64,000 nucleotides of DNA, from contig NZ_CP042304.1 in NCBI RefSeq assembly GCF_007859655.1, positions 2,723,501 through 2,787,500 of the forward strand. The letters run 5' to 3'. Source of the DNA: Devosia ginsengisoli (GTDB lineage Bacteria > Pseudomonadota > Alphaproteobacteria > Rhizobiales > Devosiaceae). The notes below the pieces were generated by a model, which was not told the origin of the DNA, did no database searches, and saw nothing but the letters and a program-made list of their open reading frames with translations. Made by a program: the position numbers and the translations under genes. Positions 47,827 through 62,708 of the stretch are shown in pieces. Position 1 is the first letter of the stretch; the number at the start of each line of letters is the position of its first letter.

Positions 47827-47970
47827 TTCCACCCTCAACCAATATTAGTTATATATTTATCACCATAGGACCAGAGTGATCTCGTTGACAAGAGGGGTTC
47901 TTGCGTGGCGCAGGAAGGCCGCAATCTGCTAGAAGGACAAAAGCGAACAAACAGCGGGAAAAAGGCAGGC

Positions 47971-48993
47971 ATGCCCGTGGAAAAACGAGCGACGATGGTG
48001 GACGTGGCCGAGCTGGCCGGCGTGTCACAGGCAACCGTTTCGCTGGTTCTCAACGGGGTTCCCAATGCCCGCGTCTCCAAGGCGACCCGCCGCCGCGTCA
48101 TCGAGGCAGCCGAAACCCTGTCCTATCGGCGCGGCAAGGCCCACCCGGTGCCCGAGGGCCGCAAGCGCGTCATCGGCCTCATGCTCGATGAAGTTTCCAC
48201 CACCCCTTTCGCCACGCCCTTCATCGAAGGCGCCCGCGACGAAGCGGCTTTGCAGGACGTAACCGTCGCGACATTCTGCACCCGCTCCGACCCGGCGCTG
48301 GAACAGGCGGCCATCGATCTGTTGGTCTCGCAGAAGACCATCGGCATCATCTACGCCTCGCTCATCACCAGGCAAGTCACTGTTCCCGAAGCCTTTTCCG
48401 AGCTGCCGCTGGTGCTGCTCAACTGCTACGAGCGCAAGCTGCGCTACCCCTCGGTCGTGCCCGGCGACCTGGTCGGCGGCTATACCGCGACGCGGGCGCT
48501 GCTGCGCGCCGGCCATCGCCGCATCGCCCATATGACCGGCGAAATCATCGTCGAGGCGGCCGTCGATCGCGAAAAGGGCTTTCGCCAGGCCATGGCCGAA
48601 TGGAACGCGCCGGTCGACGAATCGCTGGTCATCCAGGCCGGCTGGACCATTCGTGGCGGCCGCGAAACGGCGCTGGCACTGATGTCGCTGCCCGAGCCGC
48701 CCACTGCCATCTTCTGCTTCAACGACCGCATGGCCATGGGCTGCTACGAAGCCGCCCGCATGCTGGGCCTCTCCGTTCCCGGGGACATTTCCATCGTCGG
48801 CTTCGATGATGAAGACCTGGCGGTCAATATGGAGCCGCCCCTCTCCACCATGGTGCTGCCGCATGACGAAATGGCCCGCTGGGCCGTGGCCGAACTGCTC
48901 GACAGCTACAATGATGCCGACCAGGACGAGCGCCAGCAGAAGGTCAAGATCGAGTGCGAACTGATCGAGCGCAACTCGATCGCCCCGCGCTGA
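47971..48993 (+). CDS. LacI-family regulator divergent from the GH2/importer genes
   Basis: 340 residues from ATG 47971 (MPVEKRATMVDVAELAGVSQ). The helix-turn-helix ATMVDVAELAGVSQATVSLV and the NGVPNARVSKATRRRVIEA segment open the protein. The effector domain shows IGLMLDEVSTTPFATPFIEG, then GHRRIAHMTGEIIVEAAVDR and DISIVGFDDEDLAVNMEPPL. It shares the 144-bp intergenic region with the GH2 gene, the normal position for the repressor of a sugar locus. It is 39 percent or so similar by eye to the next LacI gene, which points the other way. Confidence 0.9.
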   Translation: MPVEKRATMVDVAELAGVSQATVSLVLNGVPNARVSKATRRRVIEAAETLSYRRGKAHPVPEGRKRVIGLMLDEVSTTPFATPFIEGARDEAALQDVTVATFCTRSDPALEQAAIDLLVSQKTIGIIYASLITRQVTVPEAFSELPLVLLNCYERKLRYPSVVPGDLVGGYTATRALLRAGHRRIAHMTGEIIVEAAVDREKGFRQAMAEWNAPVDESLVIQAGWTIRGGRETALALMSLPEPPTAIFCFNDRMAMGCYEAARMLGLSVPGDISIVGFDDEDLAVNMEPPLSTMVLPHDEMARWAVAELLDSYNDADQDERQQKVKIECELIERNSIAPR

Positions 48994-48996
48994 GCG

Positions 48997-50076
48997 CTAA
49001 GCTTTTGGCTTTGCAACCGAATCCCGCTCGACCAGTGGGCATTCGAGCTTGACCAGCGGATAGCGCCCCTGCCCCGGCACGAATTCGCCGAGCTGCTCCA
49101 CCACCCAGGCCCCCATGGCCCGATGCGGCAGGATGGACGTGGTCAGCCGGGGATGCAGGTGCCGCGAGATTTCCTCGTCGTCATAGCCCACCACGGCCAT
49201 GTCGGTGGGAATATCGTATCCCGCCTCCTTGAGCGCTTCATAGCAGCCGATGGCCGTCCGATCATTCTGGCAGAAGATCGCCGTCGGCGGCTCGGGCAGC
49301 GCCAGCAGCGTGCGCGTCGCGTCATAGCCCGAACTGGCCGACCAATCCCCTTCCACCACCAGCGCCGGATCGAACGGAATATCGGCCGTGGCCAGCGCCC
49401 GCCGATAACCCTTGAGCCGGTCCTGCGCCGCCTCCATCCAGATTTCGCCTGTAATCGTGGCGATGCGCCGATGCCCCTGCTCGATCAGGTGCCGCGTGCT
49501 GCGCTGCCCACCGGCAATCTCGCTGGGCACCACGGCCGGACAGATCTGGCTGGCCGTATAGCAATTGAGCAGGAAAACCGGCATTTCCAGCCCCAGCAAT
49601 TGCTGCGGCAGCTCCACTTCGCGCGTGAAAATCGTCATATAGACCAGGGCTGAAACCCGCTGCTCCACGAAGGTGCGGATCAGCTCGGCTTCCAGCTCCT
49701 CGTCATTATGGGTATGGGCCACCAGCACCACATCGCCGCTGGCCCGCGTCGCCTGCGTCAGCCCCTCGATGGCCACCATGGCCTCCGGGCTCGTCGCCAA
49801 CTGGTCCGCGATGAAGCCGATGCGCCGCCGCCGCGCCGTCGATACCGCTGCCCCCGCAACCGGCGGCATCGCATAGCCCAGCCGCCGCGCCGCCTCGAAC
49901 ACCCTCTGCTTGGTTTCGGCCGAGAGCTTGATCCCCGGCGCATGATTGAGCACGAAGGAAACCGTCGCCTGCGAACACCCCGCCTCGCGCGCCACGTCGG
50001 TCATGGTCACCCGCCGCCCACCACCGCGCTTTCCTCGCATTATCTGCGGCTCGATTGTGTCGGCTGACCTGGGCAT
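48997..50076 (-). CDS. LacI-family transcriptional regulator
   Basis: 359 residues from ATG 50076. RVTMTDVAREAGCSQATVSF (residues 22-41) is the DNA-binding helix-turn-helix. The hinge is AARRLGYAMPPV rather than the usual YxPN. The sensor domain has IGFIADQLATSPEAMVAIEG, GHRRIATITGEIWMEAAQDR and DMAVVGYDDEEISRHLHPRL. It is convergent with the other LacI gene, three bases apart. Shared stretches (VFLLNCY/VLLNCYE, HRRIA..TGEI..EAA) suggest the two arose by duplication. A later ATG at 50040 lacks a ribosome site. Confidence 0.88.
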   Translation of the reverse strand: MPRSADTIEPQIMRGKRGGGRRVTMTDVAREAGCSQATVSFVLNHAPGIKLSAETKQRVFEAARRLGYAMPPVAGAAVSTARRRRIGFIADQLATSPEAMVAIEGLTQATRASGDVVLVAHTHNDEELEAELIRTFVEQRVSALVYMTIFTREVELPQQLLGLEMPVFLLNCYTASQICPAVVPSEIAGGQRSTRHLIEQGHRRIATITGEIWMEAAQDRLKGYRRALATADIPFDPALVVEGDWSASSGYDATRTLLALPEPPTAIFCQNDRTAIGCYEALKEAGYDIPTDMAVVGYDDEEISRHLHPRLTTSILPHRAMGAWVVEQLGEFVPGQGRYPLVKLECPLVERDSVAKPKA

Positions 50077-50165: not shown

Positions 50166-50546
50166 TCAGGCGTCCTTGTCTGCGTCGAAGACCTCGCGGG
50201 CCAGACGGAAGGCATCGACCCCAGCAGGCACGCCCGCATAGACGGCCACCTGCATGAAGATTTCGCGGATCTCGTCCTTGCTCACGCCGTTTCGCAGGGC
50301 GCCCCGCACATGCAGTCGCAGCTCATGCGGGCGATTGAGGGTGGCGATCATCGCCAGGTTCAGCATGGACCGCGTCTTGAGCGAAAGGGTCTCGCGCCCC
50401 CAGACGGCGCCCCAGCAATATTCGGTAACCAGCTCCTGCATGGGCAGGTTGAAATCATCCGCCGAGCGGAAGGCCGCTTCGACATATTCGGCGCCGAGCA
50501 CGCTTTTGCGTATCTCCAGCCCGCGCTCCTGCACGTCCTTGCTCAT
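50166..50546 (-). CDS. Carboxymuconolactone-decarboxylase (CMD) family protein
   Basis: 126 residues, the length of PcaC. EYCWGAVWGRETLSLKTRSM near residue 42 and LNRPHELRLHVRGALRNGVS near 70 match 4-carboxymuconolactone decarboxylase, and EIREIFMQVAVYAGVPAG near 97 is the helix typical of the family. True PcaC decarboxylates 4-carboxymuconolactone in the protocatechuate pathway, but relatives act on other ring-derived acids. No other pca gene is here, so a role in the neighbouring cluster is more likely. Confidence 0.85.
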   Translation of the reverse strand: MSKDVQERGLEIRKSVLGAEYVEAAFRSADDFNLPMQELVTEYCWGAVWGRETLSLKTRSMLNLAMIATLNRPHELRLHVRGALRNGVSKDEIREIFMQVAVYAGVPAGVDAFRLAREVFDADKDA

Positions 50547-50604
50547 CGCGTTTCCCTTCCATCAAGATAGGGGGAGGGTCACCCGTGGCACCCTCCCCTG
50601 CTCG

Positions 50605-51422
50605 CTACTCGGCCTGCCCGGTCACCTGGATATGCCAGGGGGCGATCTTGTTCTCGAGCCACTGTACGCAGGCGTTGAGAGCAATGGCGAAGGTCAGCAA
50701 CACGATGATGGGCGCGAACATTTCGGCCGTCTCGAAATTGTTCGCGGCGGTGAGGATGATCCCCCGAGCCCGGAAAGGGCGGTGAAGAACTCCGCCACGA
50801 TCATGGCGATGATGCCTTTGCCCACGGCCAGCCTGATGCCGGCCATGATGTAGGGCACCGAGGCCGGCAGCACGATCTTCTGCAGGATATCGCGGCGGGT
50901 GCCGACAAAGGATTCGCCGACTTCGATCAGCGATTTGGGGATGGATTTCACCCCCGACCAAGTGCTCATGCAGATCGGGAAGAACGAGAGCGTGGCGACG
51001 ATGGCCACTTTCACGGTGAAGCCCAGCCCAAACCAGAGCATGAAAAGCGGCGTGATGGCGATCAGCGGCATGGCATTGCCGGCAGTGACATAGATGCTGA
51101 AGGCCGCTTCGAGGAAGCGGAAACGACCCAGCAGCATGCCGATCGGGATGCCCAGGATGGCGGCCAGGCCGAAACCCACCACAAAGGGCTGCAGGCTCTG
51201 GAAGAAGGCCTTCGGCAGGCGACCATTGGCGGTCAGCTCGAACATCTTGGCCGCGATAGCCGATGGATAGGAGCCGAACAGCGGGTTGACCTGGCGGCCA
51301 AAGATTTCCCACAGCAGCAGCGCAATGGTGACCGAGGCGATGGTGATCACCCGGCGGTTTGTCAGGATAGTCGTCAGGTCCATGCGCAGGCTCGACGGTG
51401 CGGGAGCGTGATCGGTGGTCAT
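50605..51422 (-). pseudogene. ABC transporter permease (SsuC/TauC-like), single-base frameshift
   Basis: From ATG 51422 the frame encodes a normal nitrate/sulfonate-type permease: FVVGFGLAAILGIPIGMLLG, then AITPLFMLWFGLGFTVK and the EAA-like loop (VPYIMAGIRLAVGKGIIAMI). It reaches ALSGLGG near 50765 and then runs into SSSPPRTISRR. One frame over, the sequence continues as expected: IILTAANNFETAEMFAPIIV and LNACVQWLENKIAPW, ending at TAG 50607..50605. Restoring one G in the five-G run (50761-50765) joins both halves into about 272 residues. Either a real mutation or a homopolymer sequencing error. Confidence 0.88.
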
Positions 51423-52216
51423 CAGGCGGCCTTTCTCGCGTCGGCGTCCATTTCGTTCTTCAGCAATTCCCACAGGCGCAGTCGCTTTTCGCCGAATTCG
51501 GGGTTGCCACGCAAAGCGGCCAGGCTGGGCCGCGGGCGCGGCAGGCGCATTTCCAGGGTCTCGGCGACACGCCCCTGGCTCATCACCACGACGCGGTCGG
51601 CCAGCAGCACGGCCTCGTCCAGGTCGTGCGTGACCAGGATAATGGTCTGTTGGGTCTGGGCCTGGATGGCCATCAATTCGTTCTGCAGGCCCTCGCGGGT
51701 CTGAGCATCCAGCGCTCCGAATGGCTCATCCATCAGCAACACATCGGGACCGATAGCCAGGGCCCGGGCGATGCCGACACGCTGCTTCATGCCACCCGAC
51801 AATTGATGCGGCAGCCGGTCGGCGGCATGGCCGAGACCAACCAGTTCGAGGTAACGCCGGGCCTCGACATCACGGGTCTGCTTGTCCATGCCCTTGAGTT
51901 CGAGCCCGAAGGCCACGTTTTGCACAGCATTGCGCCAGGGCAGCAATTCGGAGTGCTGGAACACCATGCCCCGATCATAGCCACAGCCGCTCACCTGGTT
52001 GCCGTTGACGATGACCGAACCGCCACTGGCTTTCTCCAGGCCCATGATGATGCGCAGCATCGTGGTCTTACCACAGCCGCTGGCACCGGTGATTGCAACG
52101 ATCTCTCCCCGTTCCAGGGAAAAGGAGACCCCGCTCAGCGCGTGCACGTCTCTTGTATTGCCCGCTACCTTGGTTCTGAACGTCTTGCTGACATTCTGGA
52201 TTTCGACCAACGCCAT
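51422..52216 (-). CDS. ABC transporter ATP-binding protein (SsuB/TauB-like)
   Basis: 264 residues from ATG 52216 (MALVEIQNVSKTFRTKVAGN), with AAAGGAGA upstream. ITGASGCGKTTMLRIIMGLE near 40 is Walker A, MVFQHSELLPWRNAV near 80 the Q-loop, LSGGMKQRVGIARALA near 133 the signature and VLLMDEPFGALDAQTR near 152 Walker B/D-loop. THDLDEAVLLADRV near 190 contains the H-loop. Its stop overlaps the permease start by one base. The set with SBP and permease matches taurine/sulfonate/nitrate-type importers that often carry aromatic or N-containing acids. Confidence 0.92.
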   Translation of the reverse strand: MALVEIQNVSKTFRTKVAGNTRDVHALSGVSFSLERGEIVAITGASGCGKTTMLRIIMGLEKASGGSVIVNGNQVSGCGYDRGMVFQHSELLPWRNAVQNVAFGLELKGMDKQTRDVEARRYLELVGLGHAADRLPHQLSGGMKQRVGIARALAIGPDVLLMDEPFGALDAQTREGLQNELMAIQAQTQQTIILVTHDLDEAVLLADRVVVMSQGRVAETLEMRLPRPRPSLAALRGNPEFGEKRLRLWELLKNEMDADARKAA

Positions 52217-52241
52217 CGAGGGGGTCTCCTTTGTCTGTCGT

Positions 52242-53219
52242 TTATTGGGCGGCGAGGAGCGCCTTGGCGTCCTCGAGCACTGACGTGTCGACCATGGTGG
52301 CCGGATCGAAGCCGGCATCCATATTGCCGGTTTCACCGAGCAGGTCGCTCAGCCACTTCAGCTTTTCGACGTCGACCGTCATCTCCGGATCGACCGCGCC
52401 AAATTCCACCACTTCATCATAGATCATGACGGGCGCTTCATCCTCGGGAGGAAGCTCTGCCTTGTCATAGGACAGGGCAAGCGTGGCCTCCTTGTTCTGC
52501 AGGGCGAAGCTGAAGCCCTTGAGCTGGGCCGCCAGGAAGCTCGCGATATAATCAGGGCTGTCACGCACGATATCGCCGCGGGTCATGATGCAGAAGCGCA
52601 CATATTCGGGCACCACGTCGCGGGCATGGACCAGCATGTGCAGCCCCAGCTCGGGCGCCTTGGCATTGAACTCGCTGGAGCTCGGCGCGGCGGTGATGAG
52701 GTCGGCCGAAACGGCGGCAATGCGCTCGGCATCGCTGCCGGCCACGGTGAAATTCACGGCATCGAGCGGGATGCCGGCAGACTTCACCACGGCGCGCGAG
52801 AACAGGTCGGGCAGCGATCCGGGCGCCGAAACGCCGATCGTGCCGCCGGCAAGCTGGTCTACGCTGGTGATCTCGGGCTTGGTGAACAGGGCATAGGTCA
52901 GCCCCGGCCACGGACAGGCAATGATCTTGATGTCGGCGCCCTTGCTCGCAGCGATCATGGGGCCGCCGGGATTGCCGATATAGGCATCGAGCTCGCCCGC
53001 CAGCAGGCCGCGCAGCAGGATGGAGTCGCCCTTGAAGGACTGCATGTCGATATCGAGGCCGAAGCTGTTATCGAAGCCGTCTTCGGCGCCCATATAGACA
53101 AAGCCCGCATCGCCCTTGGTGGCGACGGTGCCGTAGCGGAACGGCTCCAGCGACTGGGCCTGAGCCAGGCCGGTGGTAACGAGAATGGCTGCAGCGGCAA
53201 GGCCGGCGCGCTTTTTCAT
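52242..53219 (-). CDS. ABC transporter substrate-binding protein (NMT1/SsuA-like), exported
   Basis: 325 residues with a signal peptide (MKKRAGLAAAAILVTTGLAQ, then AQS). The mature part begins LEPFRYGTVATKGDAGFVYM. LLRGLLAGELDAYIGNPGGP near 70 and VDQLAGGTIGVSAPGSLPDL near 115 are the usual steps of NMT1/THI5-like binding proteins. It is the first gene of the minus operon SBP-ATPase-permease-CMD. The ligand is unknown, but the position points to the substrate of the adjacent degradation cluster. Confidence 0.88.
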   Translation of the reverse strand: MKKRAGLAAAAILVTTGLAQAQSLEPFRYGTVATKGDAGFVYMGAEDGFDNSFGLDIDMQSFKGDSILLRGLLAGELDAYIGNPGGPMIAASKGADIKIIACPWPGLTYALFTKPEITSVDQLAGGTIGVSAPGSLPDLFSRAVVKSAGIPLDAVNFTVAGSDAERIAAVSADLITAAPSSSEFNAKAPELGLHMLVHARDVVPEYVRFCIMTRGDIVRDSPDYIASFLAAQLKGFSFALQNKEATLALSYDKAELPPEDEAPVMIYDEVVEFGAVDPEMTVDVEKLKWLSDLLGETGNMDAGFDPATMVDTSVLEDAKALLAAQ

Positions 53220-53569
53220 GATTTATCCTCCAGATTGATAATGGGTCTAGGCACTCTCACCGTGCTCACTGCGAAGTGTGGTCACGGGCACATCGTTCAC
53301 GCTTCTGCCCAGGGATGAAATCCAGGCCGCCTCGGCACCTTCTCCTCCAGATGCGGCAGCCCGAAACCCGATCATCCCAAGCCAGGTCCTGTTCGGCCGC
53401 AGGTCGAGCCCGACTGGCTCGTGCCTTGTCCATGCACCCACGCCTTGAGACGGAGCGGGCCGGTGGCCTTGAATGTGGATTGCGGATTCCTCAGGTTTCC
53501 CTTTGCTGGACAATCACAGACGAGATGACGTAGTATCGTCATACAAGATTTGTCACGTCAAGAGAGGTA
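53220..53569. other. Divergent regulatory region between the importer operon and the EthD-like gene
   Basis: 350 bases without a convincing gene; short frames here lack ribosome sites or motifs. It holds the promoter of the importer operon to the left, with a GGAGG ribosome site before 53219. To the right is the promoter with TCGTCATACAA at 53507-53546. The middle shows nothing else I recognise. Confidence 0.6.
53507..53546 (+). promoter_or_regulatory. Promoter with GntR-type operator (site A) upstream of the EthD-like/gntR unit
   Basis: TGGACA (53507-53512), 18 bases and TAGTAT (53531-53536) form a plausible promoter. TCGTCATACAA (53536-53546) directly after the -10 box is a one-mismatch copy of the TTGT-N3-ACAA palindrome seen perfectly at 57916-57926 and 62680-62694. 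Confidence 0.65.
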
Positions 53570-54271
53570 ATGATGCGACCTGGCGGTATACTTTTCTCCG
53601 AGATGACGCCCGAGCCCAGTTGGGAAGCCGAATTTCACGACTGGTATGATACAGAGCACATCCCGGTCAGGATGGCGGCGCCGGGCTTTTTGGGCGCACA
53701 GCGCTACAATCGCCAGGAGGGTCCGGGCTTCCTGGCGGTGTACGACATGGAAGCGCCGACCGCCCTGCAGACCGAGGAGTATAAGCGCATCAAGGGTGAG
53801 CCGAGCGAGCGCACGGCGCGCATGCTTCGCGATGTTTCGGGCTTCACGCGCTACACCGGCAAGCTGCTCAGCTGGCAGCAGCAGGAGGGCATCAGTGATA
53901 CGGAGGTTCTCGAAAGCCCCGTGCTCTATCCCGTATTTTTTACCGTTCCACCGGATCGGCAAGCGGATTTCAACGCCTGGTACACCGAGGATCATGTGCC
54001 CAAGCTGCTGCAGGAGCCCCAATGGCTCGGTTGCCGCCGATATGAAATCGTCGATGGCGCTCCGCATGACTATTCCCATATTGCCCTGCACCACCTGGCT
54101 TCCGCGCAGGCTTTGGAAAGCCCGGCGCGTGCTGCCGCGCGAAACACGCCCTGGCGGGACCGTTTGGCGAGCGAAAGCTGGTTTCGCGGCACCTATATGA
54201 TATTCCTCAGGCGCGGCGCGCGCTTCTCGGCGCAGCAGGCCGGCCAGAAACTGGAGAGCGACGATGAATAA
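53570..54271 (+). CDS. Two-module EthD/dimeric alpha-beta-barrel-like protein
   Basis: 233 residues, function unknown. The first module has FHDWYDTEHIPVRMAAPGFL and GAQRYN (residues 23-48). The second has FNAWYTEDHVPKLLQEPQWL and GCRRYEI (near 130-157). A W-Y-x-x-E-H-[IV]-P helix followed by a strand ending in RRY is the pattern of EthD and related ferredoxin-like barrels, which normally form dimers of single modules. The duplicate arrangement would make an internal pseudodimer. It is first in the unit with the GntR regulator and behind site A, so it belongs to the cluster. Confidence 0.65.
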   Translation: MMRPGGILFSEMTPEPSWEAEFHDWYDTEHIPVRMAAPGFLGAQRYNRQEGPGFLAVYDMEAPTALQTEEYKRIKGEPSERTARMLRDVSGFTRYTGKLLSWQQQEGISDTEVLESPVLYPVFFTVPPDRQADFNAWYTEDHVPKLLQEPQWLGCRRYEIVDGAPHDYSHIALHHLASAQALESPARAAARNTPWRDRLASESWFRGTYMIFLRRGARFSAQQAGQKLESDDE

Positions 54272-54315
54272 GATGGAGGGGGCCGGCAACCGCTTGGGGG
54301 GGAGGAGCATCGGGC

Positions 54316-55008
54316 GTGCAGGACATGCCCGATTTGCGCATCGTACAGCCACGAGCCCTGTTGCGGGAGCAGGTGCTGGACAAGCTGCGCAACGCCATCA
54401 TCGAGGGCTGGTATCCGCCCGGTACCCGCCTTATCGAGCGCGAACTCTGCGAAGCACTGGCCGTCAGCCGCACATCGGTGCGCGAAGTTCTGCGCCAGCT
54501 CGAGAGCGAACAGCTGGTCACGGTTGAGCCGCGCCGGGGCCCCACAGTCGCCTCCATAAGCCTGGCCGAGGCCGAAGCCATCTACGAAACGCGGGCCATC
54601 TTCGAAACCGCCGTCGTTCGTGCCTTCATCGAGCGTGCCGGCAAAGCCGAATTCAGCACCTTGACCCTGGCCGCCCGGGAGTTCGGTGAAGCCGCCGAGA
54701 CGAATGATCGCCACAAGCTCCTGTCGAGCATGAGCCTGTTCTACGACACCCTGCTGCATGGCGCCGGCAACCCGGTCCTGCAGGGGGTGGTGCGCCAGCT
54801 CATGGCGCGCGTGGCCTTCCTGCGCAGCAAATCCCTGAGTGAACCGGGCCGGTTGAAATACAGCGTGGCCGAAATACAGGAAATGTGCAGCGCGATCCTG
54901 GCGCGGGATGCGGAGCGGGCCGAAAAAGCCGCTGCGAACCACGTGGCGCGGGCCAGGGAAGCGGCGGTGCGCCAGCTTTCCCTCGAAATACCGGCAAGCG
55001 CCCGCTGA
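54316..55008 (+). CDS. GntR-family regulator, FCD subfamily
   Basis: 230 residues from GTG 54316. LLREQVLDKLRNAIIEGWYP and GTRLIERELCEALAVSRTSV, with REVLRQLESEQLV, form the winged helix. The FCD effector domain follows with YETRAIFETAVVRAFIER near 95, HKLLSSMSLFYDTLLHGAGN near 135 (metal-ligand region) and AILARDAERAEKAAANHVAR near 195. FCD regulators usually bind TTGT-like palindromes and sense organic acids. TTGT-N3-ACAA sites lie upstream of its own unit and two enzyme operons here. Confidence 0.88.
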   Translation: MQDMPDLRIVQPRALLREQVLDKLRNAIIEGWYPPGTRLIERELCEALAVSRTSVREVLRQLESEQLVTVEPRRGPTVASISLAEAEAIYETRAIFETAVVRAFIERAGKAEFSTLTLAAREFGEAAETNDRHKLLSSMSLFYDTLLHGAGNPVLQGVVRQLMARVAFLRSKSLSEPGRLKYSVAEIQEMCSAILARDAERAEKAAANHVARAREAAVRQLSLEIPASAR

Positions 55009-55042
55009 TTGCTCGCGCCGGAACCGGCGCCAGCCCGTTCGG

Positions 55043-55966
55043 TCAGTTGGACCACAATGCGCTGAATTGCGTGGCGACTATGTCTTCAGGAGCCAGCATC
55101 CGCTTGGACAGACCATTCGCCATGGCAAACCTGTTGAGGCCTTCGATGGCGTCCGGCCCGATGCTTGCGTCATAAAACGGCGCGTCCCGGGCAACGAGCA
55201 CCGGTATGAGCTCAGCCTGGTCCTTGGGGAAGAGATCGTCACCGACCTTTCGTGCGAGATTGGGATCGGCCTGCAGCGCGCGCTGGGTGGCCCGGATCGC
55301 GCGGATGGCCGCGGCGGCCACTTCCGGCTCCTTTTCAATCAGGGCGTCGGTGGTGGTGAGCGCCGCGAAATTATAGAACCGCGCGCCCGGCGGGCCGTCA
55401 CCACGCCGCAAGTCGAGATGCAGCTTGGCGAGACCGGCTTTCTCGGCCAATGCCAGCCGCATGCCATTGCCCCAGAACGCATCCGCGTGGTTCTCGCGGA
55501 TCGCCCTTATGCCATCAAGGCTGTGCCACTCCGAATGCGTCGCCAGGCTCTCGACGATCTGGACCTCATCGCGGTCCATGTCCATTCCGGCCTCGGAAAG
55601 CATGTATTTCAGCGCGGTGCGCGGAAAGGCGAATGACGAGGCAACGCGCAGGCCCTTGAGGCCGGCAATATCGCCGCGCTCGATCTCGATATCCTTGCGG
55701 ATGCCCATGAACCAGTAGGAATATTGCGACAGGGCGCAGAGCAGCTTGGCGCCCTTCCACATCGGAAACGCCCGCGTCGCCGCGAAGGCCGGCCCGCCGA
55801 AGAAATGAATGGAGCCATCGCGCAGCTTTTCCGGCCCGTGCTTGGCGCCATATTCCGGGATGAACTCGATCTCGACGCCTTCAGCCTGGAAAAAGCCAAG
55901 CTTAACCGCGGCCGTGGCGACGAAATAGGAAGGCGAGTCAACGTCCGCAACCATCATCTTGTACAT
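55043..55966 (-). CDS. NMT1/SBP-fold protein without a signal peptide
   Basis: 307 residues from ATG 55966 (MYKMMVADVDSPSYFVATAA), which has GGAAGGA upstream. LGFFQAEGVEIEFIPEYGAK near 22 and LRDGSIHFFGGPAFAATRAF near 48 fit the NMT1-like binding-protein fold. DIAGLKGLRVASSFAFPRTA near 95 continues it. Nothing resembling a signal peptide precedes the first strand, so the protein should stay in the cytoplasm. Some signal-less members of this fold are enzymes, for example 4,5-dihydroxyphthalate decarboxylase. It is last in the DUF1185-amidase unit; whether sensor, enzyme or orphan binding protein is open. Confidence 0.65.
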   Translation of the reverse strand: MYKMMVADVDSPSYFVATAAVKLGFFQAEGVEIEFIPEYGAKHGPEKLRDGSIHFFGGPAFAATRAFPMWKGAKLLCALSQYSYWFMGIRKDIEIERGDIAGLKGLRVASSFAFPRTALKYMLSEAGMDMDRDEVQIVESLATHSEWHSLDGIRAIRENHADAFWGNGMRLALAEKAGLAKLHLDLRRGDGPPGARFYNFAALTTTDALIEKEPEVAAAAIRAIRATQRALQADPNLARKVGDDLFPKDQAELIPVLVARDAPFYDASIGPDAIEGLNRFAMANGLSKRMLAPEDIVATQFSALWSN

Positions 55967-55988
55967 TTCGCGGTCCTTCCGACCAGTT

Positions 55989-57320
55989 TCAGGCGTGTTC
56001 GAGGCGCCAGCGCGCCACCGCCATGAGATCGGCATCTTGCCCGTTCCTGCCGATCAGCTGCAGGCCCATGGGCAAGCCGCTATCCTGCAGGATCGGCAGG
56101 GTGAGCGCCGGCACGCCGAGCAAGGACGCCGGCACATTCATGGCGGGGCTGCCCGTATTGTCGGTGACACGCGGCGCGGCCCCTGTTGCCGCCAGGGTGA
56201 CGAAGCAGTCGACACGCTCCGCCAGACGGCCGAAACGCTGCCGGATGGCATCGCGACGAGCCAAAGCCGCCTCGTAGTCGTCCCGGTTCATCGCCTTGCC
56301 GGCCGCCAGCCGCTGCTGCATCGGCGGGCTGAGTTTTTCGTGGGGATAGCTGCGCAGCGGCCAGGCGAATTCCCACGAAAGGATACGCTCCGTCAGCTGC
56401 CATGCGTCCAAAAGTGCGGCTTCCAGCTCGGCAAGCTCGCCGTCTTCATCACTCACCAGTTCCACGCCGGATTGCCTGATGGCATGGATCTCCTGGTCGA
56501 GCGCGATCCTGGCGCCCGGCTCGATCTGCGACCATCCGGCGGTCTTCAGCAGCGCCATCCGCTGCGGTGCCCGACTGGCAGGCAGACGCTCGCTACCCCT
56601 AAGGGTGACGCGGCCCGGATCCCCGCCGACGCGCGAGGCAATCGCCGTCGCCAGGCCCCAGGCGCCGTTCAGGCTCGTTGCGATCGTGCCCAGGCAGCTC
56701 TGGCTCAACTGGTCATTGGCGCCGCCCCGGTTAAGCGCGCCGAAGCTGGGCTTGTAGCCGACCACGCCGCAATAGCTGGAAGGCCGGATGATCGAGCCGA
56801 CCACCTGGGTACCCAGCGCGCCGCCCAGCATGCCTGCGCCGACCGCTGCGGCCGAACCGCTGCTCGAGCCGCCCGGCGTCCGCTCTATGTCGTGCGGATT
56901 GCGCGTCGCGGCAAAACTGTGACGCGTCGCGAATTCGGTCGTGGTGGTCTTGCCCAGCACCACAGCACCCGCCTCGCGCAAAGCCTGCACGGCGGCGCCG
57001 TCGCGCCGGGTGTGAAAGCCCGCCCAGATCGGCGAGCCCTGTCCGGTGGGCATGTCTTCCGTCTCGATGACGTCCTTGATGCCCACCACCATGCCGTCGA
57101 TCGGCGACAACGGCTCGCCCGCCTTCCAACGACGGGTCGAGGCTTCGGCCGCCGCCGCCGCACCGGCCCGGTTGAGCGCGGTGAAGGCGGCAATCTCGGA
57201 CTCGCGCGCATCGATCACCGCCAGATGGGCGGCGAGCACGCTGCTCGGGGTAGCGGTGCCGGCGCGATAGGCGGCATCCGGCTCGATCAGGAGGGGATGC
57301 GGCGCCGCGTCCTTGCTCAT
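55989..57320 (-). CDS. Amidase (amidase-signature family)
   Basis: 443 residues. The Ser-cisSer-Lys triad can be placed: GMVVGIKDVIETEDMPTG near residue 73 (Lys), GGSSSGSAAAVGAGMLGGAL near 151 (cis-Ser and nucleophile Ser region) and GTQVVGSIIRPSSYCGVVGY near 171. The start overlaps the DUF1185 stop by four bases (57317-57320). The family hydrolyses amides to acid plus ammonia. In this cluster it could deaminate the amide produced by ring opening. The physiological substrate cannot be read from sequence. Confidence 0.9.
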   Translation of the reverse strand: MSKDAAPHPLLIEPDAAYRAGTATPSSVLAAHLAVIDARESEIAAFTALNRAGAAAAAEASTRRWKAGEPLSPIDGMVVGIKDVIETEDMPTGQGSPIWAGFHTRRDGAAVQALREAGAVVLGKTTTTEFATRHSFAATRNPHDIERTPGGSSSGSAAAVGAGMLGGALGTQVVGSIIRPSSYCGVVGYKPSFGALNRGGANDQLSQSCLGTIATSLNGAWGLATAIASRVGGDPGRVTLRGSERLPASRAPQRMALLKTAGWSQIEPGARIALDQEIHAIRQSGVELVSDEDGELAELEAALLDAWQLTERILSWEFAWPLRSYPHEKLSPPMQQRLAAGKAMNRDDYEAALARRDAIRQRFGRLAERVDCFVTLAATGAAPRVTDNTGSPAMNVPASLLGVPALTLPILQDSGLPMGLQLIGRNGQDADLMAVARWRLEHA

Positions 57321-57886
57321 GCCGACGCCAGGATCTCTTCGTAGCGCATGCCGCCGACGCGCGCATTGATGCGGCCGCCCGTGCCCATGCAGAAGATGAT
57401 CGCCACTTCATCGGGCATCGGGCCGTCGGGGATCAGCAGGGTCATGCCGTCATAGTGGGAGCGGACATAGACATCGTCCTTGCAGTTCATCGGCACGTCG
57501 ATCACGGCGCCGGGCGCGGCCACCTTGGTCATCGACGAAATCCACGCCTTGGCGCCGCCAATAGCCTCGCGGAACGGGTTGGCGAAGGTGGTGGTGAGCA
57601 GCGCATTGGCATGCTCCTGCTCGCCCAGCAATCCCACGACGCCACCCTTGCCGTAGCTTTGCACCCCCATGCCGTCCAGCGCCCGCACGGCACTGGCGGC
57701 CATCTGGCGCCCAAGGCCTTCGCTGGCCTCGATCAGCGGGGAGAGGTCCTCGACATACCGCCCGATATAGGGGTTTTCGAGGATGTAAATGACCGCAACC
57801 TTGCGCAGGGGCACGTTGGCCTGCCGGCCAGCCTCGACCCGCTTGTCGTCGATCAGGGTGAAGGTGCGGCGGATGTTAAAGTCCAT
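57317..57886 (-). CDS. DUF1185 ('amino acid synthesis family') protein
   Basis: 189 residues from ATG 57886 (MDFNIRRTFTLIDDKRVEAG), with GGAGCTGTTCC upstream. KVAVIYILENPYIGRYVEDL near 30, SYGKGGVVGLLGEQEHANAL near 80 and CKDDVYVRSHYDGMTLLI near 135 are DUF1185 blocks. Biochemical function is not established. These genes are often found beside amidases and amidohydrolases of ring-degradation loci. It starts the unit behind operator site B. Confidence 0.8.
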   Translation of the reverse strand: MDFNIRRTFTLIDDKRVEAGRQANVPLRKVAVIYILENPYIGRYVEDLSPLIEASEGLGRQMAASAVRALDGMGVQSYGKGGVVGLLGEQEHANALLTTTFANPFREAIGGAKAWISSMTKVAAPGAVIDVPMNCKDDVYVRSHYDGMTLLIPDGPMPDEVAIIFCMGTGGRINARVGGMRYEEILASA

Positions 57887-57915
57887 GGAACAGCTCCAAA
57901 TATCACTATCGATCT

Positions 57916-57926
57916 TTGTCATACAA
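57916..57926 (-). promoter_or_regulatory. GntR-type operator (site B) upstream of the DUF1185-amidase unit
   Basis: TTGTCATACAA is a perfect TTGT-N3-ACAA palindrome 30-40 bases before the DUF1185 start. On the minus strand it follows a TATTAT that could be the -10 box (57932..57927), the same order of box and operator as at site A. Confidence 0.6.
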
Positions 57927-57943
57927 TAATATGGCAGTCAACC

Positions 57944-58705
57944 TTAGCCAGCCGGGATCAACGCTTCCCACAGCATCTTCGCGGCAAGCCCCGCCAGAAG
58001 CAGCATGACCAGCCGGTCGAAGACCTCCCGGGAAATCTTCCGGGCGATAAACGTGCCGAAGGACATGCCCATGAGCATGGGCAGCAGCGCCACGCAGCTC
58101 AGGAGAAAGCCGAGCGGGGTGAGGACACCGGTGAAGGCAAGCGCCGGCAACTGGACCGACGCAAAGGTCACGAACAGCATCGATGTCGTGTTCATGAAAC
58201 TCTGCCGGTCGAGCCCCATGGCATTGAGAAAGCTCAGGGAAACCGGCGCCGAAATGCCCGCGGAGCCCTGGACGACACCGCTTATGAAGCCGAAAACGGC
58301 GGCGAGCCGAAGCGCCAGCGGCGCACTCAGCCGCCAATTGCTCTTGGTCAGCCGCAGCACGAGATAGAGCACGACCGCCAGGGCGACGACCAGCGACAGG
58401 GTTCGCGAATCCAGCCCCACCAGCGCCCAGGTGCCCAGCGTCACGCCAATGGCGGCGGAGAGCAGGAAGGGCACCAGGAAATTGGCGCGCAGATGATGCT
58501 GCCGGTTCTGCCACATCTGCATCGCATTGGTGATGAGGTTGGGCACCGTCATGATCACGATGGCAAAACGGACATCGTGAAAGGCGACCAGAGCGGGCAC
58601 GGCCAGAAGCGGCGCCCCCGCCCCGGTCGCACCCTTCAGGATTCCCCCACAGGCGAGGCTGACGACGACAATCACCAGTTCAAAGACGGGCAAGGTGCTC
58701 TCCAT
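57944..58705 (-). CDS. TauE/SafE-family membrane transporter
   Basis: 253 residues with about eight hydrophobic helices. GGILKGATGAGAPLLAVPAL near residue 20 is the first TauE repeat motif and GFISGVVQGSAGISAPVSLS near 145 the second. The family exports sulfite, sulfoacetate or other organic anions. It is the last gene of the enamidase operon, 11 bases after the dehydrogenase. Either release of a by-product or uptake of a substrate anion is possible. Confidence 0.87.
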   Translation of the reverse strand: MESTLPVFELVIVVVSLACGGILKGATGAGAPLLAVPALVAFHDVRFAIVIMTVPNLITNAMQMWQNRQHHLRANFLVPFLLSAAIGVTLGTWALVGLDSRTLSLVVALAVVLYLVLRLTKSNWRLSAPLALRLAAVFGFISGVVQGSAGISAPVSLSFLNAMGLDRQSFMNTTSMLFVTFASVQLPALAFTGVLTPLGFLLSCVALLPMLMGMSFGTFIARKISREVFDRLVMLLLAGLAAKMLWEALIPAG

Positions 58706-58716
58706 TTGGCGGAGCG

Positions 58717-60189
58717 TCAGGCGGCGGACGCGTCGAGGCCGCCCATGCAGACATATTTGACCTCGAGATAATCCTCGATGCCGTGGCGTGAGCCCTCCCG
58801 GCCCATGCCGGATTCCTTGACCCCGCCAAAAGGCGCGACCTCGGTGGTTACCAGCCCCTCATTGACCCCGACAATTCCATAGTCGAGCGCCTCGGAAGCG
58901 CGGAAAGCGCGCCCCAGATCGCGGGTGTAGAAGTAACAGGCCAGGCCATATTCGGTATCATTGGCCAGCCGCACCGCCTCCTCTTCGGTCTCGAAGCGGA
59001 ACACCGGCGCCAGGGGCCCGAAGATTTCCTCGCGCGAGAAGCGCATGGCGGCACTGGCCTCGGCGATAATGGTCGGTTCAAAGAAATTGCCACCCAGTTC
59101 ATGGCGCCGGCCACCGGTCACCACCTGGCCGCCCTTGCCGACGGCATCGGCAAGCAATTCCTCGACCTTGCCGAGCGACTGGGAATCGATGAGCGGGCCC
59201 AATTCGACCCCCTGCTCCGCCCCGGGCCCGACCCGCAATTTCTGCGTGGCGCGGGACAGCTTCTCGACGAATTCATCGTAGACGCCCGCCTGGACATAGA
59301 AGCGATTGGTGCAGACGCAGGTTTGCCCGGTATTGCGGAACTTGGCATTGATGCCGCCTTCCACGGCCCGGTCGATATCGGCGTCGTCGAAGACGATAAA
59401 GGGCGCATTGCCGCCCAGCTCCATCGACACCTTCTTCACCGTGCCCGCCGCCTGGGCCAGCAGAACCTTCCCCACCTCGGTGGAGCCGGTGAACGTGATC
59501 TTGCGCACCAGCGGATTGCTGGTGAGCTCGCCACCGATCTCGCGGGCGGAACCCGTGATCACGTTGACCACACCGGCAGGGAAACCCGCACGGGCGCAGA
59601 GCTCGCCCCAGGCCAGCCCCGAATATGGCGTCTGGGTTGCCGGCTTGCAGACGATGGTACAGCCCGCCGCCAGCGCCGGGGCGATCTTGCGCGCCAGCAT
59701 CGACGAGGGAAAATTCCACGGCGTAATGGCGCCGACAACGCCCACCGGCTGACGGGTGGCGAGCAGCCGCCGCCCATGCCAGGGCGATGGGATGATTTCG
59801 CCATAGACCCGCCTGGCTTCCTCGGCGAACCACAGGACATAGGCCGCGCTCATGCCGATTTCCCCGCGGGCCTCTGCCAGCGGCTTGCCCTGCTCGCGGG
59901 TCAGGATCTGCGCCAGCTCCTCCTGGTTTTCCAGGATCAACTGGTGCAGGCGGCGCAGCATCTCGGCCCGCTCACCCGCGGTGGTCTTGCTGAAGCTCAG
60001 GAAAGCCGTATGCGCGGCCTCGATGGCGCGCCTGGTCTCGGCCGCACCGCCATTGGCGATCGTGCCGATCGCGGTGCCGGTGGCCGGGTTATCCACATCC
60101 AGCGTCCCGCCGGACTGGGCATCACACCACGCGCCGGCAATATACATCTGCTGGCGGAACAGGGGGCTGTCGCGAAAATCTTGCTGCAC
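58717..60189 (-). CDS. gabD: NAD(P)-dependent succinate-semialdehyde dehydrogenase-like
   Basis: 490 residues from GTG 60189, with AAAGGAAAAG upstream. ALDH motifs are complete: GAITPWNFPSSMLARKIAPA near 152, ITFTGSTEVGKVLLAQ near 235, MELGGNAPFIVFDDAD near 258 and NTGQTCVCTNRFYVQ near 286 with the catalytic cysteine. VNEGLVTTEVAPFGGVKESG near 450 is characteristic of GabD-type SSADH. It would convert a C4 semialdehyde to succinate, a logical last step for ring cleavage of a pyridine or piperidine-like compound. Confidence 0.85.
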   Translation of the reverse strand: MQQDFRDSPLFRQQMYIAGAWCDAQSGGTLDVDNPATGTAIGTIANGGAAETRRAIEAAHTAFLSFSKTTAGERAEMLRRLHQLILENQEELAQILTREQGKPLAEARGEIGMSAAYVLWFAEEARRVYGEIIPSPWHGRRLLATRQPVGVVGAITPWNFPSSMLARKIAPALAAGCTIVCKPATQTPYSGLAWGELCARAGFPAGVVNVITGSAREIGGELTSNPLVRKITFTGSTEVGKVLLAQAAGTVKKVSMELGGNAPFIVFDDADIDRAVEGGINAKFRNTGQTCVCTNRFYVQAGVYDEFVEKLSRATQKLRVGPGAEQGVELGPLIDSQSLGKVEELLADAVGKGGQVVTGGRRHELGGNFFEPTIIAEASAAMRFSREEIFGPLAPVFRFETEEEAVRLANDTEYGLACYFYTRDLGRAFRASEALDYGIVGVNEGLVTTEVAPFGGVKESGMGREGSRHGIEDYLEVKYVCMGGLDASAA

Positions 60190-60213
60190 TTGCTTTTCCT
60201 TTGCTGGGAACCG

Positions 60214-61431
60214 TCACGCCGCCTGCAGCGCCGTGGCCTTCCGATTGGCTTCCAACATGGATGCCCGCATGAGATAGGCCTTCGCGCTGACCGGATCGGC
60301 AGCGATGCGGCGCATCTCATCGAGATTGGCCCGGCGCGTCTCGGGGTCCTTGGCCTCCAGCCGCTTCTTGTTCTGGATGGTCTGGGCCTGCACGAAATCC
60401 ACGGTCAAGGTGCGGCGCTGCAGGTCATAGAGGTCGAGCAGCGTATCGGACGCGCCATGCCAGACGCGGGCGAGCTTGTCTGCAAGGTTGACCGCGTCCT
60501 GGATGCCGCCATTGAGGCCCATGCCGCCAATCGGATTGTTGACATGGGAGGCGTCACCGGCCAGCAGGATCCGGCCCTGCCGGAAGGTCTTGGCGACGCG
60601 CTGATGCACCCGGTAGAGATTGCGATGCACGATCTCGTAGCCCCCGTCTTTGGGGAAGAAGCGCTCGAGCCGGGCATGCACGGCTTCATCGGAGAGCAGT
60701 TCCGCCTCGGTCTGGTCGGGCGAGGTCGGGAACACTGTGCGCCAGAGGCCTGGAGGGCCATCGGCCGCGACCTTAAAGCAATTGCACCATTCCTCGGGGT
60801 CAGCAAAATAGCTGCGGAAGCAATAGCCGCGGCTGGCTTCGAAATCGAAGGGCGTGGTGAGAACCAGGAATTGCTCGGCCCAGGTAAAGCCCTCGAACTC
60901 GATATTGGCCCCCTTGCGCACGGCACTGCGGGCACCATCGGCACCGACAAGATAGCGCCCCTCGAACAGGCGCTGGCCGTCCGGCGTCTTGACCGTCACC
61001 TCGACCCGGTCGTCATGGCTCACGAAGCTCACCACTTCATGGTCGAACAGCACTTCGGCCATGGGCTCGTTGCGCAGATGCCTGAGGACGATCTGCGCCG
61101 TCTTGAACTGCTCGCACTGGACCACATAGGGATAGGCGGTTTCGTCGGCGATCAGGGCGTGATCGAATTCGGCCACCATTTCTCCGCTGGGACGATCCCA
61201 GAACTGGAAGATCGGCGCCACCAGGCCTGCAGCGCGCAGGTCCTCTTCCAACCCGAGCGCGCCCAGCATTTCCAGCGTCGCGGGATGGGTGGTGGCGGCC
61301 CGGGGATCTTCCTGCAGGCTGGCAAAGCGCTCGAGGACGGTCACCGGCACGCCGCTGCGCGCCAGGCTCAGCGCACAGATGAGGCCGACGGGGCCGCCGC
61401 CGCTGATGATCACGCGATTCTTGTCGGACAC
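60214..61431 (-). CDS. FAD-dependent monooxygenase (PheA/TfdB, FAD_binding_3 family)
   Basis: 405 residues from GTG 61431, which has AAGGAGAAAGCC upstream. VIISGGGPVGLICALSLARS is the GxGxxG FAD motif, and LVGADGARSAVRKGANIEF near 160 the DG fingerprint. GRILLAGDASHVNNPIGGMG near 270 is the GD motif and second flavin contact, followed by LNGGIQDAVNLADKLARVW. This is the group A aromatic hydroxylase layout. It sits between the enamidase and dehydrogenase genes, so hydroxylation or ring activation before hydrolysis is likely. Longer upstream frames overlap the enamidase gene and are rejected. Confidence 0.9.
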   Translation of the reverse strand: MSDKNRVIISGGGPVGLICALSLARSGVPVTVLERFASLQEDPRAATTHPATLEMLGALGLEEDLRAAGLVAPIFQFWDRPSGEMVAEFDHALIADETAYPYVVQCEQFKTAQIVLRHLRNEPMAEVLFDHEVVSFVSHDDRVEVTVKTPDGQRLFEGRYLVGADGARSAVRKGANIEFEGFTWAEQFLVLTTPFDFEASRGYCFRSYFADPEEWCNCFKVAADGPPGLWRTVFPTSPDQTEAELLSDEAVHARLERFFPKDGGYEIVHRNLYRVHQRVAKTFRQGRILLAGDASHVNNPIGGMGLNGGIQDAVNLADKLARVWHGASDTLLDLYDLQRRTLTVDFVQAQTIQNKKRLEAKDPETRRANLDEMRRIAADPVSAKAYLMRASMLEANRKATALQAA

Positions 61432-61453
61432 GGCTTTCTCCTTGAAAATGGGT

Positions 61454-62650
61454 TCAATGCGCCGCGGCGCTGAAATCGCGCGGCAGGCGGTTTTCGGCAA
61501 CCCGTATCGGGCGGGTAGGTGCCGGGGTATTGCGGCTGCGCCCGACGAAGCGCGGCACGCCATCGCTGAATACGGCCCCTACGGCGACCGGGTCACCGTG
61601 ACGAAGCGCGCCAAGCGCGCTGTCCTGGGTGCCGCCGAGTGGCGCATCCACGAGGATCAGGTCGGCATCCCGGCCGGGGCGCAGATATCCCGAACTACGG
61701 CCATAGACCCGGGCATTGTTGCCGGTTGCCGCCCCGATGACCATTTCGGGCGGCAGGTCGAGCAGGCTCGACAGGTGGGTGATGGTGTAGAACATACCCA
61801 GCGGCATGATGCCCGACCCGGTCGGCGTGTCGGTCGCAATAAGCAGCCGGTCGAACTGGTCATGGGCGATGGCCTGCCGGGTGCAGAGCAGCGCCGTACG
61901 CAGATTGCCGGCCGTGCAGAGCTGCAGCGCCACCTGGCTTTCGGCCACCACGCGCTCGAAATGCGCATCGGGCATGGCGACCGGCCCGCCATTGATGTGG
62001 AACGAGACATGCGGATCGATGGCCAGCACATGCTCGCCATCGATCGGGGACGAACCGGGAATGGAGGCACCGCCGGTATGCAGCGTGGTGATCATGCCGT
62101 GTTTGCGCGCCATGGCCACCAGCGGCGTATAGTCCAGCGGATCGGCAAAGGCGCCGAAGCCGGCCTTGGCAAGCCACACGCCGGCGGCGGCCAGTTCGGC
62201 AAAATCCGCCTCGGTCAGTCCGGGCTCCAGGATCACCGATCCGGCCCAGACCCGCATACCGCCGGGGCGGTATTGGGCAAAACAGCGCTGCGCCGCGATG
62301 GCGAGGGCCTTCACACCGACAGGATCGGACGGACGGCCGGGAACATGCACTTCCGAGGCACTGATCGCCGTGGTGACCCCGCCATGCAGATAGCTTTCCA
62401 GATAGCCCACCGTCTTCTGGCGCGGCGTATAGTCACCGAAGGTGATGTGGACATGGGAATCGATAAGGCCCGGCATGGCGGTAGCGCCCGCCGCATCCAC
62501 GACGACGTCGCAGGATGCCAGCGCGGCTGCGTCAGCCGTGCCGACGCTCTCGATCAGGCCGTCCTGCATGAGGATCGTGTCACCGCTGGCCAGGGGCTGG
62601 CGCCAGTCACCACTGACGATGCACCCCAGATTGACGACAGCAGTACGCAT
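61454..62650 (-). CDS. Enamidase-like amidohydrolase
   Basis: 398 residues from ATG 62650 (MRTAVVNLGCIVSGDWRQPL), with GGGAGGGTGAA upstream. PGLIDSHVHITFGDYTPRQK near 52 supplies the HxH metal motif, LHTGGASIPGSS near 185 and VSFHINGGPVAM near 213 two further histidines, and LLIATDTPTGSGIMPLG near 268 the aspartate. DYTPRQKT, LHGGVTTAIS, PGRPSDPVGVKALA and the end SRNTPAP closely follow Eubacterium barkeri enamidase, which opens 6-oxotetrahydronicotinate. It should hydrolyse a cyclic enamide or lactam. It is the first gene after site C. Confidence 0.82.
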   Translation of the reverse strand: MRTAVVNLGCIVSGDWRQPLASGDTILMQDGLIESVGTADAAALASCDVVVDAAGATAMPGLIDSHVHITFGDYTPRQKTVGYLESYLHGGVTTAISASEVHVPGRPSDPVGVKALAIAAQRCFAQYRPGGMRVWAGSVILEPGLTEADFAELAAAGVWLAKAGFGAFADPLDYTPLVAMARKHGMITTLHTGGASIPGSSPIDGEHVLAIDPHVSFHINGGPVAMPDAHFERVVAESQVALQLCTAGNLRTALLCTRQAIAHDQFDRLLIATDTPTGSGIMPLGMFYTITHLSSLLDLPPEMVIGAATGNNARVYGRSSGYLRPGRDADLILVDAPLGGTQDSALGALRHGDPVAVGAVFSDGVPRFVGRSRNTPAPTRPIRVAENRLPRDFSAAAH

Positions 62651-62679
62651 TTCACCCTCCCGACTTGCGACACAGCCAT

Positions 62680-62708
62680 TCTTGTATGACAAGATGACGA
62701 TATGTCAA
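62680..62708 (-). promoter_or_regulatory. Promoter with perfect GntR-type operator (site C) upstream of the enamidase operon
   Basis: TCTTGTATGACAAGA (62680-62694) is a perfect 15-base palindrome with a 3-base centre. On the minus strand a consensus TTGACA (62708..62703) lies 8 bases upstream, so the operator covers the spacer end and -10 region. The ATG of the enamidase gene is 30 bases beyond the palindrome. Confidence 0.75.

Follow-up and report, generated by a model that had tools for sequence, protein, structure and literature searches.

Does the group of genes at positions 50,166–62,708 of the Devosia ginsengisoli DNA analysed here form a single catabolic system, and if so, what kind of compound would it degrade? 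The stretch, referred to below as the window, is 64,000 nucleotides long (positions 2,723,501–2,787,500 of a single-contig 4.48-Mb genome), and coordinates are window positions unless stated otherwise. The initial annotation, made from the sequence alone, had proposed a regulon of four transcription units for the degradation of an N-heterocycle or a cyclic amide, and all the genes that it named were found where it had placed them. The cluster is a real, coherent and uncharacterised regulon, a variation on known N-heterocycle catabolism and not a new kind of system. We hold with about even confidence that the regulon serves the inducible breakdown of an aromatic N-heterocycle, in which hydroxylation would be followed by hydrolytic ring opening and semialdehyde oxidation. 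No description of this gene set was found in the open literature, as represented by search listings and the beginnings of abstracts, a coverage outside which most subscription journals lie.

By gene spacing, the cluster falls into three blocks: a minus-strand block of seven genes (enamidase-like hydrolase, monooxygenase, succinate-semialdehyde dehydrogenase (SSADH), TauE, DUF1185 protein, amidase and a protein with the fold of substrate-binding proteins (SBP)), a plus-strand EthD–GntR pair and a minus-strand SsuABC–CMD block. Judged by spacing alone, the whole block of seven could be one operon. The division of this block in the initial annotation is supported, however, by a predicted operator, containing an exact TTGTCATACAA (57915..57928), located about 30 bp before the DUF1185 gene. 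A palindrome, TCTTGTCATACAAGA (62680..62694), adjoins a −35-like TTGACA, recognised by eye, about 30 bp upstream of the hydrolase start, and a variant form, containing GTCATACAAGA (53535..53548), precedes EthD in the EthD–GntR promoter. All three predicted sites are kept in the loci L001 and L002 of two other Devosia. The presence of a shared operator at three promoters bears out the proposal of one regulon; of the four units proposed, three carry a predicted operator in this genome, while no site within one mismatch belongs to the importer unit itself. In L001, an extra operator-like site was found about 165 bp before ssuA. We infer that the three TTGTCATACAA-type operators are bound by the FCD-type GntR regulator (54316..55008, plus strand; PF00392 and PF07729).

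In the whole 4.48-Mb genome, exact TTGTCATACAA occurs at only two sites, both of them cluster promoters (57916 and 62682). Within one mismatch, nine genome sites were found, including three in the cluster (53536, 57916 and 62682), all at promoters; by our own arithmetic, about 0.03 of nine sites would be expected by chance in a 13-kb stretch. A reversed control pattern of TTGTCATACAA gave 24 genome matches within one mismatch; therefore, strings of this kind are no rarity as such, and the weight lies in their placement. The sequence GTCATACAAGA has three genome sites, two of them in the cluster, and its control pattern has none; the third (genome position 1,910,131) lies among short open reading frames with no catabolic gene seen and was taken as a chance match. 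Among the loci collected for comparison, the 92,982 bp of L001–L004 and L107, which contain both the monooxygenase and the hydrolase, include 10 sites at up to one mismatch, six of them exact, against 13 sites, two of them exact, in the 1,682,616 bp of 105 other loci (L081–L083, L087 and L115 being left out of this count). Five of these 13 sites fall in L031, L093 and L095, and four of the five adjoin the starts of hydrolase, EthD or DUF1185 genes.

The comparative search proposed with the initial annotation found the unit preserved in L001 and L002, where the gene order is kept apart from CMD, and its core elsewhere. The hydrolase, monooxygenase, DUF1185, EthD and GntR genes stand together in L003, L004 and L031. 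On a Mariluticola plasmid (L107) the order is GntR, EthD, DUF1185, hydrolase, monooxygenase, TRAP, TAXI and SSADH, and on an Agrobacterium vitis plasmid (L108) it is GntR, DUF1185, hydrolase, EthD, monooxygenase and an ABC importer. Eighty loci, among them L001–L004 and L031, were fetched with the monooxygenase as the query. Markers in the loci were counted by tblastn, the codon-score gene caller having missed many genes in some of them. Among 297 genomes of the order, the hydrolase subfamily described below was found in 12 and the monooxygenase at ≥60% identity in three, two of which also contain the hydrolase. Six listed genomes of the same genus have neither gene at those thresholds; therefore, the island is sporadic.

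The possibility that the genes belong to two or more unrelated pathways, brought together by chance, has to be considered here, since the amidase, the SBP-fold protein and SsuABC also occur with relatives of the monooxygenase that lack the hydrolase, and the cluster therefore gives the impression of two or more modules joined together. Both the operator shared at three promoters and the gene order kept in L001 and L002 speak against mere adjacency, which we regard as very unlikely.

The hydrolase (61454..62650, minus strand) is homologous over its full length to the enamidase of nicotinate fermentation by Eubacterium barkeri (2VUN; phmmer E = 2e-103 over 382 residues), and its best named protein relative comes from Devosia nitrariae. 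The HxH, the two His, the Asp and the PRQKT motif of 2VUN are kept in the window protein. However, the Glu in the GEVG position of 2VUN, which we take to be the bridging metal ligand of enamidase, is replaced by Lys in the window protein and in all 25 rows of the alignment of sequences at ≥60% identity, which represent 20 distinct loci, five rows repeating the same place. Lys was also found in all nine loci of a later second set drawn at the class level, and 13 rows of lower identity have Glu in 11 cases and Lys in two (L111 and L112). Lys and Glu are alternatives at the bridging metal ligand in this superfamily. By its sequence, the window hydrolase is enamidase-like, as the initial annotation had it, but it is no orthologue of the enamidase of the nicotinate pathway; it belongs to a related subfamily, below called Lys-type, in which the presumed metal ligand differs. 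With the 20 and the nine class-level loci taken together, 29 distinct Lys-type loci, the window included, are available for counts. A genome-wide search with the 6-hydroxynicotinate reductase of L113 at E 1e-10 gave no match, in a search run with no positive control, and because this reductase was not found, a complete pathway of the nicotinate type was rejected.

The DUF1185 protein (57317..57886, minus strand), a member of the TgnF/HcdD family (PF06684, E = 9.5e-65; 2QTP, E = 2e-38), is the most regular companion of this hydrolase. It was found nearby in 25 of the 29 Lys-type loci (18/20 and 7/9). In genomes of the order, no more than 5 kb separate it from the Lys-type hydrolase in at least 10 of 12 cases; for 49 enamidases of lower identity, the distance is ≤5 kb in at least 18 and ≤15 kb in at least 33 cases, all these distance counts being lower bounds from a partial list of DUF1185 genes.

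The flavin monooxygenase (FMO; 60214..61431, minus strand) is a group A FAD enzyme (PF01494), whose closest solved relatives are PnpA (6AIN, E = 8e-71) and then HspB (7DA9, E = 2e-55). PnpA and HspB hydroxylate their substrates with loss of a ring substituent. The group A monooxygenase was found in nine of the 29 Lys-type loci and an HpaB-type group D enzyme in another nine, and the two were never found together (L095 was counted as HpaB at 39% identity, and a PF01494 monooxygenase of 31% identity in L096 was left uncounted). Under independence, both would be expected in about 2.8 loci, with a chance of about 0.017 of finding none, by our own arithmetic, in a sample that owes several of its loci to the search with the monooxygenase and includes related ones. 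When only genomes selected by the hydrolase are considered, the group A enzyme is present in 2/12 and 1/9 and the HpaB type in 7/12 and 2/9. Matches to molybdenum (Mo) hydroxylase subunits were found in six loci of the 29 (L093, L094, L095, L110, L120 and L123). The same hydrolase is accompanied by differing oxygenases.

In a phylogenetic tree of 54 monooxygenase rows, the nine hydrolase-linked rows occupy four places, well-supported branches forcing at least three changes, and a single clade was rejected (p-AU 3.4e-49, approximately unbiased test). An 84-row tree without L123 placed the hydrolase-linked monooxygenases in three places; in that tree L083, a copy of L107, is unlabelled and adds one change. 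L108 forms a long branch in the monooxygenase tree, and its placement is unsure. Since the hydrolase-linked monooxygenases do not form one clade, the pairing arose or persisted in several lineages. That monooxygenases of separate lineages stand beside one and the same kind of hydrolase favours a functional link, and one early gain followed by many losses might also account for it. The different flavin monooxygenases around one hydrolase suggest a modular gain of new N-ring substrates by bacteria. Tentatively, and with clearly less than even confidence, an undescribed aerobic route may be proposed, in which an interchangeable oxygenase (group A FMO, HpaB type or Mo hydroxylase) feeds a constant ring-opening cassette of Lys-type enamidase and DUF1185, DUF1185 has a general role in N-ring breakdown, and the FMO version yields succinic semialdehyde from an acid of the pyrrole or pyridine type through hydroxylation followed by hydrolysis of the ring.

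The reading of hydroxylation followed by hydrolysis is supported by the relatives identified by sequence, namely enamidase 2VUN, PnpA, HspB and an SSADH above its curated cut-off, and the enamidase and hydroxypyridine-monooxygenase relatives bear out the N-heterocycle theme of the initial annotation. Precedents are enamidase itself, the group D monooxygenase of pyrrole-2-carboxylate breakdown and the DUF1185-family protein TgnF, both taken up below. The group A monooxygenase would introduce a hydroxyl group into the ring, perhaps in place of a substituent, as in the reactions of PnpA and HspB, and the hydroxylated ring would tautomerise to a lactam-type cyclic enamide. The Lys-type metallohydrolase would open this enamide by hydrolysis, DUF1185 might assist the opening or the next step, and the released semialdehyde, most likely succinic semialdehyde, would be oxidised to succinate by the GabD-type enzyme. 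A pyrrole or pyridine acid is a plausible candidate for the class of substrate.

A different order of events is conceivable. The MHPCO and TgnAB monooxygenases, of vitamin B6 and trigonelline breakdown, open the ring themselves, and MHPCO, like the window enzyme, belongs to group A. If the monooxygenase opened the ring first, the hydrolase would then cleave an acyclic enamide (acylamino-methylene succinate) to succinic semialdehyde, which GabD would oxidise; this is the main rival explanation, and we consider it possible, though doubtful. The window monooxygenase resembles PnpA and HspB, and the best 60 of its 117 PDB matches include no chain under the name MHPCO. In other loci an HpaB-type enzyme takes its place, and we know of no ring-opening HpaB enzyme, which also counts against oxidative opening. 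The known hydrolases of the MHPCO and trigonelline pathways have other folds than the window hydrolase, and trigonelline (tgn) ring opening in Acinetobacter baylyi employs a two-component monooxygenase and a different hydrolase. A TgnAB-type two-component monooxygenase is not present in the cluster, where the oxygenase is of group A (PF01494), the rest of the genome not having been searched for TgnAB. Nevertheless, the two features of tgn type, DUF1185 and SSADH, are both present in the cluster, which favours oxidative opening: TgnF, a protein of the DUF1185 family, is reported to stimulate the TgnE-dependent oxidation of succinic semialdehyde (PMC7913881).

The SSADH (58717..60189, minus strand) is of the GabD type and exceeds the TIGR01780 cut-off (682 bits against 646). 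It is present in four of the nine loci with the group A monooxygenase, in agreement with the C4 semialdehyde assumed by the initial annotation, and also in L110. This enzyme admits another explanation. HspB releases succinic semialdehyde, it is the second-closest solved relative of the monooxygenase, and in the Devosia loci the SSADH gene comes after that of the monooxygenase, so the monooxygenase could remove a succinoyl-type side chain as succinic semialdehyde, with the remaining ring left to the hydrolase. However, in L110 SSADH accompanies the hydrolase without this monooxygenase, and it is missing from five of the nine loci with the group A enzyme; removal of a side chain in the manner of HspB seems unlikely.

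The hydrolase might also be not a hydrolase at all but a dioxygenase, cleaving a dihydroxylated pyridine made by the monooxygenase. In the 4-hydroxypyridine (kpi) pathway of Arthrobacter sp. IN13, a flavin monooxygenase likewise acts with a ring cleaver of the amidohydrolase family, KpiC, which is reported as a dioxygenase 28% identical to enamidase, its only characterised close relative (PMC7356986). In contrast, the window hydrolase matches enamidase over its full length with the His/Asp motifs kept, KpiC itself not having been compared, and the kpi end product is another one, 3-formylpyruvate and not succinic semialdehyde. A KpiC-like role is quite improbable.

Hydroxylation followed by hydrolytic ring opening has its own difficulties, and several observations weigh against it. 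The hydrolase is missing from the fetched stretch in 75 of the 80 loci collected with the monooxygenase, some of these 75 being short contigs, and only two of the 12 hydrolase-containing genomes of the order have a window-like monooxygenase beside it. Neither of the counted flavin enzymes is present in 11 of the 29 Lys-type loci, and SSADH occurs in only five of the 29 and in none of the nine HpaB loci. In four of the 25 Lys-type rows, Gln takes the place of the first His in HxH, which tells against the simplest reading, that of one conserved site. The two closest solved relatives of the monooxygenase act on a nitrophenol (PnpA) and a pyridine (HspB), and because of the former a phenol substrate is possible. 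Finally, the nine class-level loci showed no such operator in the vicinity of the hydrolase: their sole TTGTCn(1-2)ACAA match is a distant palindrome in L122, which matches on both strands, and matches within one mismatch occur only in L118 and L120, more than 2 kb from the hydrolase. L108 has no operator-type site within one mismatch either, although it contains both FMO and hydrolase; therefore, the operator is not universal.

Among known systems, the breakdown of pyrrole-2-carboxylate shares flavin hydroxylation of an N-ring with the proposed pathway, and its monooxygenase, a group D enzyme (PMC6165268), provides a precedent for N-rings as substrates of HpaB-type enzymes. The window enzyme, however, is of group A, and nothing here ties the window to pyrroles directly. 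A UbiD-type decarboxylase, found with 13 FMO loci, was rejected as a pointer to pyrroles, as the one copy compared, that of L025, fits UbiD-like and other decarboxylases better than PA0254, a pyrrole-2-carboxylate decarboxylase. Homarine and riboflavin breakdown were likewise set aside as substrate routes, the literature searches and the passages of the riboflavin paper (PMC12746152) having given no match. In the class-level locus L123 (4300–17200), Mo hydroxylase subunits, the hydrolase, DUF1185, EthD, the monooxygenase and two UbiD-like genes, one of them confirmed by Pfam, stand in a row, which may hint at a carboxylated N-ring substrate.

The cluster of the Sulfitobacter plasmid L113 resembles the window in the presence of an enamidase together with DUF1185. 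Its enamidase is of the Glu type, and it contains two DUF1185 genes, UPF0280, 6-hydroxynicotinate reductase and a Mo hydroxylase, whereas the window has a flavin monooxygenase instead. L104, L105 and L114 resemble L113, with an enamidase beside DUF1185 and a protein of the same cluster as the 6-hydroxynicotinate reductase annotated in L113. Another set, in genomes of the order (L098–L101 and L106), includes a Glu-type enamidase, two DUF1185 genes, an isochorismatase and two nucleoside-hydrolase-like genes (one confirmed by Pfam), a nucleoside-type ABC importer recognised by eye, and lacks the 6-hydroxynicotinate reductase cluster. Possibly, this set serves the breakdown of a ribosylated heterocycle.

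The amidase, TauE and the SBP-fold protein are accessory members of the window cluster. The amidase-signature protein (55989..57320, minus strand; PF01425), to which the initial annotation gave the cleavage of the amide, is not supported as an essential step and occurs in only six of the 29 Lys-type loci, a 30% match in L117 being left out. The TauE/SafE family membrane protein (57944..58705, minus strand; PF01925) occurs in three, the window, L001 and L002, and the CMD-family protein (50166..50546, minus strand; PF02627) in two, the window and L117 (57% identity). Their rarity places all three outside the conserved core, to which the kind of importer does not belong either. Neither L001 nor L002 yielded a CMD gene, with 418 and 632 bases available beyond SsuC. 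In L117 (6500–12053), an HpaB-type enzyme, DUF1185, the Lys-type hydrolase, the 30% amidase match and the CMD relative occupy one stretch, and CMD may belong to some versions of the gene set.

The importer was correctly recognised as SsuABC-type, with an SsuA-type substrate-binding protein (52242..53219, minus strand; domain matches and a signal-like N-terminus by eye), an SsuB-type ATPase (51422..52219, minus strand; PF00005) and an SsuC-type permease (50605..51473, minus strand). The permease, however, consists of two overlapping frames, with PF00528 on the first part; the break at about 50,760 adjoins a run of G, and the frames of L001 and L002 are open through this point. Either the importer has decayed or a base was called in error.

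The SBP-fold protein (55043..55966, minus strand; PF09084, NMT1/SBP type) has a probable start without a signal peptide, by eye. Its structural model (pLDDT 92) matches SsuA/TauA-type binding proteins and also the enzymes Thi5 and DszB, so an enzymatic role is possible. The two-module EthD/ABM-fold protein (DUF4286; 53570..54271, plus strand; assigned by domain matches) gave a model (pLDDT 92) that matches the anthrone-oxidase-like 5F9P and PenE 9KDP. Both models offer fold leads only.

Hydrolase-free relatives of the monooxygenase in L013, L015, L024, L044 and L074 are accompanied by GntR, DUF2848, amidase, SsuABC and SBP-fold proteins, in some of these loci also by a cupin, and this is another uncharacterised catabolic set. 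In L097 (7204–12930), adenylosuccinate synthase and CoA-transferase genes adjoin the Lys-type hydrolase and DUF1185. In the window itself, two LacI-type regulators, arranged tail to tail, adjoin the cluster at 47905–50076.

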